Source of the DNA: an uncultured Chloroflexota bacterium
GTDB lineage: Bacteria; Chloroflexota; Dehalococcoidia; GIF9; AB-539-J10
Direction: 5' to 3'
Assembly (NCBI GenBank): GCA_903884455.1
Contig: CAISEW010000050.1
Location: 1-45,021, forward strand
Length of the DNA stretch: 45,021 nt
Shown: positions 6,835-44,421 of the stretch, piece by piece
How the letters are laid out: each line of letters starts with the position of its first letter
Position numbering within the stretch: the first letter of the stretch is position 1
The notes under the pieces: generated by a model
Seen by the model: only the letters and a program-made list of their open reading frames with translations
What the model was told of the DNA's origin: nothing
Databases searched by the model: none
Translations under genes and position numbers: made by a program

Positions 6835-7140
6835 GATTTATCAGCTTTGATAAAAGGCCGACACCAAAGTATATATTACAGATGGTGCGATACGCAACCT
6901 GAATAGCAGGTACTTATCCGACGTACCGGACATCTCGCTTCGCTCCTCACAATGACAAAGAGGAAGAGCTTTCTCCGGCCGAGAAGATAGCCATATAATT
7001 CTCCTTCCCCTAGCGGGGGGGAGTTAGAGGGAGGGGGAAAGCTCACAGAGTTCACCCTCACCCTAACCCTCTCCCATCGAGGGAGAGGGATTTCATACAA
7101 GATTATGGGGAAGACTATACTTTAACTTATTCTGTACATA
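6835..7140. other. 306-base intergenic stretch with repeats
   Basis: This stretch lies between the SDR and kinase-like genes. It holds a degenerate copy of the GTCATTGCGAG repeat near 6921-6957 (CGCTTCGCTCCTCACAATGAC) and a two-hairpin palindromic element at 7001-7091. The open frame across the second element is a translation of the repeat, not a gene. Confidence 0.6.
7001..7091. repeat. Two-hairpin palindromic repeat (family 1, copy 1)
   Basis: The element consists of a first hairpin around CCCCTAGCGGGGGG, a G/A-rich linker, and a second hairpin CCTCTCCC-ATC-GAGGGAGAGG preceded by TTCACCCTCACCCTAA. A closely related element lies in the opposite orientation at 11992-12070, and half of one occurs inside ade. 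It looks like a REP or BIME-type interspersed repeat. Confidence 0.75.
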
Positions 7141-11882: not shown

Positions 11883-11991
11883 TTAATTTTTTGCTTGCGC
11901 TCTTCTCCCAAACAGTTTCCTGAGATTTTACCACAGACTGAGCAGCACATGATGCGTAAGTATAATTAACCACATAATCTTGCCTAAAATT

Positions 11992-12070
11992 TCTCGCCCT
12001 CGATGGGAGAGAATTAAGGTGAGGGTGAAATCCCCCTCCCTCTAACTCCCTCCCACCAGGGGAGGGAGAC
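11992..12070. repeat. Two-hairpin palindromic repeat (family 1, copy 2)
   Basis: This is the reverse-oriented counterpart of the element at 7001-7091. It shows the CTCGATGGGAGAG hairpin, AAGGTGAGGGTGAAA linker, then CCTCCCTCTAACTCCCTCCC and an ACCAGGGGAGGGAG hairpin. It lies between the divergent amzA and folC genes. The open frame running across it is repeat translation. Confidence 0.75.
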
Positions 12071-12126
12071 CTATAAGGAATTTTGTAACTGACTATAGTA
12101 CAATTGCTGGATATCGAGGCGAGGAA

Positions 12127-14333: not shown

Positions 14334-16064
14334 ATGAATTTAAAGAAGCTGATTTCTGTGGCTAGAGGGGAAACACCCGCTGATTTGCTCCTTAAAAATG
14401 CCCGGATAGTAAATACTTTTATCGGAGAAATAGAGCAAGCCGATGTGGCTATCTATGGCGATAGGATTGCCGGAGTAGGAGATTATGATAATGCCAAGGA
14501 AATTATCGATTTACAAGGCCGGTTTTTAGCTCCCGGGCTGATTAATGGACATACTCATATAGAAAGCTCTATGCTACACCCGGCAAGGTATGCTCAAGCC
14601 GTGGTCCCCAGAGGCACTCTAGCTGTGGTCACTGACTTACATGAAATCGCTAACGTTTGTGGACCTGAAGGTATAAAATTTGTCATGGATTGGGCACGAA
14701 AGCTCCCACTGGATATGTTATTCATGGCTCCGTCATGCGTGCCAGCAACCCATCTGGAGACATCAGGCGCTCAAATCACCTCCAAAGAAGTAAAGAAAAT
14801 TCTAGCCTCCCCCAATGTAATTGGCCTGGGAGAGATGATGAACTTTCCGGGCGTGATTAGCGGGGATGAAGAGGTTTTGCAAAAGATCGGCGCCTCTCAG
14901 GGCAAGGTTATTGATGGGCATGCTCCGGGACTCGGTGGCAAAGAACTGAATGCTTACTTATCCGCTGGCATCCTTTCCGACCACGAATCCACAACCCTGG
15001 AGGGAGGAAAGGAAAAGTTGCGCCGGGGCATGTACTTGATGATTCGAGAGGGCTCTTCAGAGAAGAATTTGGACGCTCTTCTGCTTTTGGTTACCGATAA
15101 TACCTATAAAAGATGCTTCTTCGTGGTGGATGACCGCAATTGCTCTGATTTACTTCGGGAAGGCGATATTGACGCTGTGGTCCGAAAGGCTATTGATAGA
15201 GGCCTGGAACCGGTCCGGGCAATTCAAATGGCAACGATTAACGCTGCCGAGTATTTCAGGCTTTATGATAGGGGAGCCATCGGCCCTGGTTATATAGCCA
15301 ACCTCATAACCATCACTGACCTGGCTAAATTAGAGATAGACATTGTGTTCTACCAAGGGAAGCTGGTGGCAAAACAAGGCAAGCTCTTGTTCCCCCCACC
15401 CCCTGTTACTCCGGAGCTAAGAGGCACGGTACGCATTAAGCCTCTTATGGGGAAATCGCTGAAAATTCCTCTCCCTCGAAGGGAGAGGTTAGGTGAGGGT
15501 GAAACCCCTGAGGAAAGCTACCCAGTCATCGAAATCATCCCCGGACAGATAGTCACCAAGAAGGCGGTGGAAAAGATAAAAGTTGTGGATGGGGTGGTGA
15601 TGCCTGACGTGGAAAGAGATATTCTAAAGCTGGTGGTGGTGGAAAGACACAAGGCTAGCGGCAACATCGGATTGGGACTAGTCAAGGGATTTGGCTTAAA
15701 GAAAGGAGCATTAGCCTCATCAGTGGCTCATGACTCCCACAACATAATAGCGGTGGGTACCAATGACTTCGACATTCTCAAGGCAATCGAGGAAATTAAT
15801 AGGCTGCAAGGCGGGCTGGTTGTTTGCGCCAACCTGGAAATTCTCGCTTCTTTACCCTTGCCCATCGCTGGCTTGCTTTCTCCCGAGCCGCTAGATGTAG
15901 TCGTGTTCCAGCATGAAAAAGTAGAGAAGGCTGCTGCCAGCCTGGGGAACTTGCCTCCAGCACCATTTTCTATCTTATCTTTCCTGGCTCTGCCTGTAAT
16001 TCCCGAACTCAGGCTGACCGATTTAGGCTTGGTGGACGTCAACGAGTTTAAGTTGATCAAGTAG
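14334..16064 (+). CDS. ade: Adenine deaminase, interrupted in frame by a repeat-encoded segment
   Basis: Adenine deaminase converts adenine to hypoxanthine, which the product of the gene just upstream (hpt) then salvages. The amidohydrolase metal motif is GHTHIESS (72-79, H73 and H75); further family motifs are VTDLHEIANV, DGHAPG, SDHEST and the C-terminal SVAHDSHNIIAVGTND. At 576 residues it is near the usual length. Around residue 380 the sequence KIPLPRRERLGEGET is encoded by half of the interspersed family 1 repeat (15467-15507), followed by an ordinary catalytic C-terminal part, so the insertion is in frame and probably tolerated in a loop between the two domains. The start ATG follows AGGAG closely after the hpt stop. 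Confidence 0.93.
   Translation: MNLKKLISVARGETPADLLLKNARIVNTFIGEIEQADVAIYGDRIAGVGDYDNAKEIIDLQGRFLAPGLINGHTHIESSMLHPARYAQAVVPRGTLAVVTDLHEIANVCGPEGIKFVMDWARKLPLDMLFMAPSCVPATHLETSGAQITSKEVKKILASPNVIGLGEMMNFPGVISGDEEVLQKIGASQGKVIDGHAPGLGGKELNAYLSAGILSDHESTTLEGGKEKLRRGMYLMIREGSSEKNLDALLLLVTDNTYKRCFFVVDDRNCSDLLREGDIDAVVRKAIDRGLEPVRAIQMATINAAEYFRLYDRGAIGPGYIANLITITDLAKLEIDIVFYQGKLVAKQGKLLFPPPPVTPELRGTVRIKPLMGKSLKIPLPRRERLGEGETPEESYPVIEIIPGQIVTKKAVEKIKVVDGVVMPDVERDILKLVVVERHKASGNIGLGLVKGFGLKKGALASSVAHDSHNIIAVGTNDFDILKAIEEINRLQGGLVVCANLEILASLPLPIAGLLSPEPLDVVVFQHEKVEKAAASLGNLPPAPFSILSFLALPVIPELRLTDLGLVDVNEFKLIK
15467..15507. repeat. Half copy of family 1 repeat inside ade
   Basis: The segment reads CCTCTCCCTCGAAGGGAGAGG followed by TTAGGTGAGGGTGAAACCCC, the same hairpin and tail as in the repeats at 7001-7091 and 11992-12070. 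Only one of the two hairpins is present. The frame of ade stays open through it. Confidence 0.75.
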
Positions 16065-19946: not shown

Positions 19947-20289
19947 CTTCAGGTCTCCTTTAAGCTTCTTAGCTTACCAGCTTTATGCATAGGCGTCAAA
20001 GGGGTATCCCCATTCAGTACCTGAGTGACACTTTCTTTCTGTCATTGCGAGGAGCCCCGATAAATCGGGCGACGAAGCAATCTCGGTGGGGCTAAGAGAT
20101 TGCCGCGCTTCGCTCGCAATGACGAAAAAAAGACGGGCTCGCAATGACACGGGAGGTTATTGCCGACATTACAAACATATAAAGTATCACCCAGCTATCT
20201 GGACTAGGTCAAGGGGATGGCAGGAAGCTGAGGGCTCAGCGTGGCAAAGGGAAAAGGTTCTGGAGGAGAGCGAGTCGCTGAACAACCTC
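19947..20289. other. 343-base intergenic stretch with repeat
   Basis: The stretch between clpC and glyS contains a repeat of family 2 (20041-20148). The remainder, about 20149-20289, shows no motif I recognise. A plus-strand frame running into clpC looks like a shadow. Confidence 0.5.
20041..20148. repeat. Family 2 interspersed repeat (GTCATTGCGAG ends), copy 1
   Basis: The left end GTCATTGCGAG (20041-20051) is matched by the perfect inverse CTCGCAATGAC at 20113-20123 and again at 20138-20148. Inside lie CCCCGATAAATCGGG and AGCAATCTC / GAGATTGC, so the element is a nested palindrome. A larger relative lies at 44039-44278. Confidence 0.75.
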
Positions 20290-29982: not shown

Positions 29983-30031
29983 CAGAGTTGTCACCGAGGG
30001 TGGTAAACTACTTGAACTGTATTACAATGAA
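29983..30031 (+). repeat. 49-base partial duplicate of the following small gene
   Basis: The segment matches 30276-30324 with four differences in 49 bases, and keeps the same reading phase: RVVTEGGKLLELYYNE here versus RVVTEDGKLFELCYNE in the small gene downstream. The flanks do not match. It appears to be a remnant of a duplicated copy. Confidence 0.75.
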
Positions 30032-30144: not shown

Positions 30145-30363
30145 ATGGAGATAAAAGTGAAATGCTATTCGGGCTATGTCTATGCCGAAGAACCACGGTC
30201 TTTTGTCTGGCAAGAAAAGGAACTGGGAATAAAGTCAGTAGAAAAAGCCTGGCAGGAACCAAGCAAAAGGCTATTCAGAGTTGTCACTGAGGATGGTAAA
30301 CTATTTGAACTGTGTTACAATGAAGCAGATGACCGATGGTCTGCTGTTGAACTGGTACTTTAA
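30145..30363 (+). CDS. Small conserved protein, possibly DUF6504-like
   Basis: A 72-residue protein, MEIKVKCYSGYVYAEEPRSF and so on, with aromatic-rich segments (FVWQEKELGI, RLFRVVTEDGKLFEL, DRWSAVELVL) that suggest a small beta-rich fold resembling the DUF6504 family. No catalytic residues are evident. A GTG at 30124 would add seven residues. It lies nine bases before the Lrp-type gene and probably shares its transcript. A 49-base duplicate of its centre lies 290 bases upstream. Confidence 0.6.
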   Translation: MEIKVKCYSGYVYAEEPRSFVWQEKELGIKSVEKAWQEPSKRLFRVVTEDGKLFELCYNEADDRWSAVELVL

Positions 30364-30372
30364 GGAGAACTT

Positions 30373-30855
30373 ATGAAGGAGATTTTTGAAATTCTAGAAC
30401 AGAATGCCCGGGCAACTCCGGAACAGATTTCCACCATGGTGGATAAACCTGTCAGTGCGGTAAAAAAAATAATTAAGCAGGCTGAGAAAGATGGGACTAT
30501 TCTGAAATATAAAGCTATAATAAACTGGCCTAAATTAGAAAAGGAAGATATATGGGCTTTAATCGAAGTCCGAGTAACACCACAACGGGGTGTTGGCTTC
30601 GATGCTATCGCTGAGCGCATTTATCAATTCCCCGAAGTGTATTCTGCATATCTCGTCTCAGGCACCTATGACCTATCCATATTAGTGAGAGGCAAGAATA
30701 TGCAGGAGATTTCCAGTTTTGTCGCGGAGAAACTGGCTCCTCTAGAGCAGGTGCAAAGTTCCGTCACCCATTTTCTTCTCAAACGATATAAGGAGTACGG
30801 GGAAACTTTTCACCTTCCTAAGGAAACGAATAGACGTCTACCGATAACACCGTAA
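30373..30855 (+). CDS. Lrp/AsnC family transcriptional regulator
   Basis: A 160-residue regulator with an N-terminal winged helix (ILEQNARATPEQISTMVDKPVSAVKKIIKQAEKDGTILKYKAIINW) and a C-terminal RAM/AsnC ligand-binding domain (ALIEVRVTPQRGVGFDAIAERI, VYSAYLVSGTYDLSILVRG). Lrp-type proteins sense amino acids and often control adjacent metabolic genes; the next gene, one base after its stop, is an aminotransferase. An AAGGAG precedes the ATG. The palindrome at 30063-30086 is a possible target. Confidence 0.92.
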   Translation: MKEIFEILEQNARATPEQISTMVDKPVSAVKKIIKQAEKDGTILKYKAIINWPKLEKEDIWALIEVRVTPQRGVGFDAIAERIYQFPEVYSAYLVSGTYDLSILVRGKNMQEISSFVAEKLAPLEQVQSSVTHFLLKRYKEYGETFHLPKETNRRLPITP

Positions 30856-44004: not shown

Positions 44005-44421
44005 AACTGCCTTGTAACATTGGGTAGTAATTTTCCGTGTCATTGCGAGCCCCGACAAGTCGGGGCGTGGCAATCTCATTGGCTAAATACCAAATCCCAA
44101 AATCCAATCTCCAAATAAATCCAAATAACAAAATCCTAAACGTTTTGAACATTGGTATTTGGATGAGACGAATTAAATCTTCCTTTCTTTTGTTTAGGAT
44201 TTGGTGCTTGGGATTTAGATTTTTTCCTCAGAGATTGCTTCGTCGCTCCCGATTCATCGGGGCTCCTCGCAATCATGAAAAAGAAGTGTCACTACGGTAC
44301 TGAACAAGGACAAGGTCTTGACAAGAGCTGATGTGGGTTGTAGCATTTTACCGCAGTCGATTTGTCCGAAAACGACTGACCAAACACAGTAAGCAGAGGT
44401 TTATCAAATTCGGAGGGGTAG
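44005..44421. other. 417-base intergenic stretch with composite repeat
   Basis: The gap downstream of the reductase operon is largely filled by the family 2 composite repeat (44039-44278). Plus- and minus-strand frames running over it are repeat translation. The remaining 140 bases before the secreted protein gene contain its GGAGGGG ribosome binding site and no other clear feature. Confidence 0.6.
44039..44278. repeat. Family 2 composite repeat, copy 2 (MITE-like)
   Basis: The left end GTCATTGCGAG (44039-44049) with CCCCGACAAGTCGGGG is matched at the right end by CCCGATTCATCGGGG and CTCCTCGCAATCATGA, the inverted end with a small insertion. The inner 140 bases are A/T-rich with AAATCCCAAAATCC-type stretches and partly complementary TTAGGATTTGG and TTGGGATTTAG. 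The overall shape, long inverted ends without a gene, is that of a non-autonomous element. Confidence 0.65.

Follow-up and report, generated by a model that had tools for sequence, protein, structure and literature searches.

The ade gene and the repeat within it

The window analysed here, a stretch of 45,021 nucleotides, is contig C50 of G000, a Dehalococcoidia genome of 1.56 Mb that is 99.5% complete in 63 contigs. Relatives are denoted by other G-numbers and come from a family sample of 52 genomes; a genus sample comprised 20 genomes. As far as records show, all are metagenome-assembled genomes (MAGs). From these genomes, the stretches surrounding search hits were analysed. The window carries an intact ade gene (Table 1), and the closest ade genes among named relatives likewise belong to Dehalococcoidia MAGs. 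The product matches the TIGR01178 profile with 603.6 bits against a cut-off of 472.5, and consists of an Amidohydro_1 domain (PF01979, residues 65–345) and an Adenine_deam_C domain (PF13382, residues 405–573). The protein keeps the metal-site motif HTHIESS along with other invariant residues. An AlphaFold (AF2) model has a mean pLDDT of 87.9 and a pTM of 0.90, and aligns with structure 3nqb at a TM score of 0.90 (Foldseek). Between congeners, dN/dS in ade is 0.07–0.14, which indicates that the gene is under purifying selection, and we predict adenine deaminase activity for the protein. A pseudogene was ruled out because the reading frame is intact, the family score is high and dN/dS is low.

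Within ade, at about 15463–15510, lies the in-frame segment AAAATTCCTCTCCCTCGAAGGGAGAGGTTAGGTGAGGGTGAAACCCC. It falls in the linker joining the amidohydrolase domain to Adenine_deam_C and encodes KIPLPRRERLGEGET. A sequence-only reading of this DNA had named this peptide, which occupies exactly residues 377–391, and had rightly described the frame as open and the downstream part as intact. In the model of Ade, the insert forms the main loop of low confidence: pLDDT falls below 50 at residues 137–139 and 382–391 only, the latter within the insert.

Table 1. Features of the window discussed in the text.
Feature	Position	Strand	Remarks
ade, adenine deaminase	14334–16064	+	576 aa, intact; TIGR01178 equivalog
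Repeat-derived insert in ade	15467–15510	+	Encodes (K)IPLPRRERLGEGET(P), residues 377–391; 83–95% match to genome copies
Hairpin of PLPR element in ade	15468–15488	+	CCTCTCCCT CGA AGGGAGAGG; inverted match I6
Intergenic PLPR copy	7051–7093	-	91% identity to ade segment; inverted repeat I6
Intergenic PLPR copy	11987–12034	+	83% identity to ade segment; D2
TGTCATTGCGAG-family intergenic copies	20040–20149	+	I2, I4; family appears as SLRAKRSNL in ade linker elsewhere
TGTCATTGCGAG-family intergenic copy	44038–44081	+	Repeat comparison within window

The segment belongs to an interspersed repeat, here called PLPR, that comprises a hairpin plus a tail of about 40–45 bp in all, with the core CCTCTCCCTYGANGGGAGAGG, a short spacer and GGTGAGGGTGA. 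Its hairpin in ade has a 9-bp stem and a 3-nt loop (RNA minimum free energy −20.8 kcal/mol, z −2.44). As had been claimed, hairpin and tail recur between genes. There are about 10 good copies in G000, including C47:7766–7813 (92% over 46 nt, E = 6 × 10−13) and C63:15630–15669 (95% over 40 nt, E = 4 × 10−12), with further matches on C41, C19 and C16. Of the two intergenic sites proposed within the window, the one at 11992 was correct, but position 7001 belongs to a different, G-rich repeat that adjoins the actual copy. The family is present in 16 of the 20 genus genomes. Read in all six frames, the element is open in three; one yields the ade peptide and another a peptide in SecA.

Other repeats also occur in the window. 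The sequence CCCCCTCCCTCTAACTCCCTCCC lies beside both intergenic PLPR copies, at 6991–7038 and 12031–12078, which suggests composite elements. A 49-nt direct repeat (29983–30031 and 30276–30324; 92% identical, 293 nt apart) lies upstream of an open reading frame at 30373.

Empty and refilled linkers among relatives

The insert is missing from the ade linker of five congeners (G013, G018, G007, G001 and G011) that are 83–91% identical to G000 in ade, and the codons flanking the empty site are retained in all five. The empty linker reads, for example, SLKIAAADETYPVIEI versus SLKIPLPRRERLGEGETPEESYPVIEI in G000; in nucleotides, a segment of about 44 bp in G000 stands against about 11 bp in G018. 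The PLPR segment is therefore an insertion in frame, as the sequence-only reading had proposed. That reading had also said what would speak against it, namely a similar peptide at the same place in homologues free of the repeat; comparison of the homologues ruled this out. The insert also occurs in the ade of G017, G006 and, in more diverged form, G015. An assembly artefact was rejected, since separate MAGs carry it.

The same linker is home to different repeat families in relatives, an aspect absent from the earlier reading. Here we found SLRAKRSNL, CHSEPRGNRGEES and RPSPNKVGGGEGL, with SYQL 16 residues upstream. LSLRAKRSNL and its variants occur in G002, G009, G008, G019 and other genera. 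A long form in G016, SLRAPIVSGRSNL, belongs to the TGTCATTGCGAG family, which matches dozens of places in G000. G014 carries SLRAPSRPCHSEPRGNRGEESRWSGQALPG, including a CHSE part that has copies in G016 and G009; no second copy of this long insert was found within G014 at E = 10−4. An own-genome, multicopy source was established for RPSP and SYQL, while the other inserts were matched to copies in congeners. Thus RPSPNKVGGGEGL, the insert of G033, has 53 matches of up to 96% in that genome, where its RPSP source family is multicopy, and SYQL, found in the ade of G022, G045 and G025, has a multicopy source family in all three carriers.

Among 47 homologues more than 66% identical, all ade indels of at least two residues fall at residues 361–391, which are also among the least conserved stretches. 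On an ade tree built with the linker masked, the linker states require at least nine changes. A single clade of the four PLPR-bearing sequences is rejected (p-AU = 3.6 × 10−5), and monophyly of those from G000, G006 and G017 is borderline (p-AU = 0.056). Note that such counts of state changes are compatible with fresh insertion and with linker transfer by recombination alike. On a different contig, G025:C139:3207–3341 weakly matches ade residues 345–394 and contains a stop; it is possibly a stray linker-like fragment.

Repeat peptides in other proteins and known repeat systems

Ade is not the only protein with such peptides. In the SecA of G000 (C19), SPHLTSPLMGEEKGEGEE is the PLPR repeat read from the opposite strand relative to ade. 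This type of insert is common to G000 and G005 and absent from the other congeners aligned; a search of phage records for its source gave no match. A second spot about 40 residues downstream holds VIASEAKQS-type and CHSERSEES-type peptides (G037, G044, G038, G036 and G045). TrpE of G005 holds ASLPRKKRLGEGE, and GlgB and PurH of G033 hold other repeat peptides; these are single cases in relatives, placed outside or between domains by Pfam domain positions. The repeats had been taken for an ongoing source of protein insertions. That they are a general source is supported by SecA in G000 and by TrpE, GlgB and PurH in relatives; "ongoing" is borne out as turnover between species and not as present activity in G000.

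Several further observations concern SecA and phage genes. A PLPR copy lies in the stretch 3′ of secA in G003, G004, G009 and G000, at an apparently conserved position. In SecA of G011 (L172, C219), the motor region is longer by about 160 in-frame residues, added at query residue 345/346, and no repeat is obvious among them; SecA of G018 (L173, C63) is expanded in its wing domain by a different, long stretch that looks helical. In G000, C41 carries in-frame peptides of the TCATTGCGAG family, such as SLRGAQRRSNL and SLRAERGNL, several of them in a phage portal gene (PF05133) and several in an open reading frame close by that has no Pfam match (about 44–54 kb; L075 965–2494, L012 1051–2265).

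In-frame insertion of repeats is already known. The Rickettsia palindromic elements (RPEs; Ogata et al. 2000) are described in a review (PMC2229807) as palindromes of 105–146 bp in an obligate intracellular alphaproteobacterium, located between genes and in frame in conserved genes; at least one host protein, gmk, is cited there as shown to be translated and active. The repeat of G000 is of this kind, being an interspersed palindrome that is multicopy between genes, lies in frame inside conserved genes and has empty sites in homologues. Compared by description, it differs from RPEs in its length, in its host (Chloroflexota) and in that several families share one site. The sequence-only reading had held that such insertions are known in few bacteria, with Rickettsia as its example. 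This does not stand, because a 2013 report describes REPs inside genes of many species (PMC3733652): GTAG and CGTC REPs are 20–40 bp hairpins found inside open reading frames of known proteins, and flexible linkers were suggested as one reason why they may be tolerated. The same report describes different REPs at about one site in Xanthomonas recB, whereas in ade a single linker has received four or more repeat types across the sampled family. Since RPEs and intragenic REPs are established, the case of G000 belongs to a known phenomenon.

The PLPR repeat is nonetheless assigned to no named REP or RPE family, because it carries neither REP tag and G000 has no detected Y1 transposase. GTAG, CTAC or CGTC lay near the hairpin in 1 of 54 collected copies, with overlapping loci counted repeatedly, and the CGTC end tag is absent. 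A second family has TGTC in 56 of 64 copies and CGTC in 6, and would therefore be at best CGTC-like; CGTC repeats are recorded in five phyla, Chloroflexi not among them (PMC3733652). A profile search detected no RAYT-type transposase (Y1_Tnp, PF01797) in G000, while 11 of the 52 family genomes had matches. This lack is not decisive alone, because RAYTs can be lost (PMC3733652). With regard to the marks of a MITE (terminal inverted repeats and a target-site duplication), the element consists of a hairpin and an asymmetric tail, and comparison with the empty ade site revealed no target-site duplication by eye. Literature searched by repeat sequence gave nothing relevant. The small dispersed repeats of Nostoc, which are cyanobacterial and have other sequences, resemble PLPR in being very small, apparently mobile hairpins that are also found inside genes.

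Origin of the insert and its significance

We consider it likely that a REP-like interspersed palindromic repeat was inserted in frame into ade, most probably by untargeted insertion filtered by tolerance. Several different families of short hairpin repeats would have dispersed among the genomes of this group of Dehalococcoidia, a single family, and insertions within genes would survive only where the frame is kept and the protein tolerates added residues at that site. The loop of about 45 residues between the two domains of Ade may be such a place, so that inserts would have arrived there, been exchanged and been lost again many times as the family radiated. The enzyme has stayed under selection for function. 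SecA may have two such tolerant spots. Both the mobilisation mechanism and the neutrality of the insert are inferred.

Several points count against this explanation. The repeats have no transposase linked to them, G014 lacks a second copy of its long insert, and the TrpE, GlgB and PurH cases were judged by domain positions. Moreover, all four PLPR inserts have one junction, one orientation and one frame, yet G015 stands apart from the other three on the tree. Such agreement would seldom arise from plain random insertion; it could be explained by shared ancestry blurred by recombination or by target preference. It is possible, though we doubt it, that PLPR entered ade once and was then passed from species to species as homologous recombination exchanged the linker segment. 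In its short spacer and its loop type, the G015 insert resembles that of G000 and not most other copies in G015, and monophyly of the remaining three is rejected only borderline; on the other hand, the frame requirement alone would favour the same spacer length, and for the remaining families in the linker separate arrivals are needed in any case. A single entry of PLPR is compatible with untargeted insertion of those other families. If the linker were instead a preferred DNA target, with entry around TCNCTGAAAAT (which resembles TCGTATAAAAT before several intergenic copies) or by microhomology, recurrence would follow from targeting rather than tolerance. The PLPR inserts of G000, G017, G006 and G015 begin at the same nucleotide, those of the TGTCATTGCGAG family begin within about 3 nt, and CGTATAAAAT or a close variant precedes several intergenic copies. 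We nevertheless regard targeting as quite unlikely, given that the RPSP insert is displaced by about 10 nt downstream and SYQL by 16 residues upstream, the flanks of 45 copies show a weak consensus beyond position −6, and by eye the SecA, TrpE, GlgB and PurH sites have no motif in common and no target-site duplication is apparent.

Selection for the peptide or for the mRNA hairpin, for example for Ade domain movement, stability or expression, seems to us highly improbable. The linker is repeatedly refilled, and between the inserts of G000 and G017 there are two synonymous differences and none that is non-synonymous; yet relative to G000 there are 2 non-synonymous changes in G006 and about 4.5 in G015, the peptides at the site vary in sequence and length, close congeners have none and the loop is of low confidence in the model. 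Decay of the hairpin in G006 (z −0.67) makes a function at the mRNA level unlikely in our judgement. We also think it unlikely that ade residues 361–391 and the two SecA spots are true hot spots, where families swap by targeted or recombination-driven exchange and form a standing source of linker sequence in essential proteins.

Elsewhere, repeat-derived peptides have mostly been described gene by gene in single genomes. The ade linker is filled, refilled or empty across dozens of related genomes, and its empty-site alleles remain close to the filled ones. Neutral tolerance can therefore be tested directly against targeting or benefit. With G000, in which no REP-type transposase is detectable, the phenomenon is extended to Chloroflexota, and the ade linker offers a natural, replicated experiment on genome debris turning into protein.
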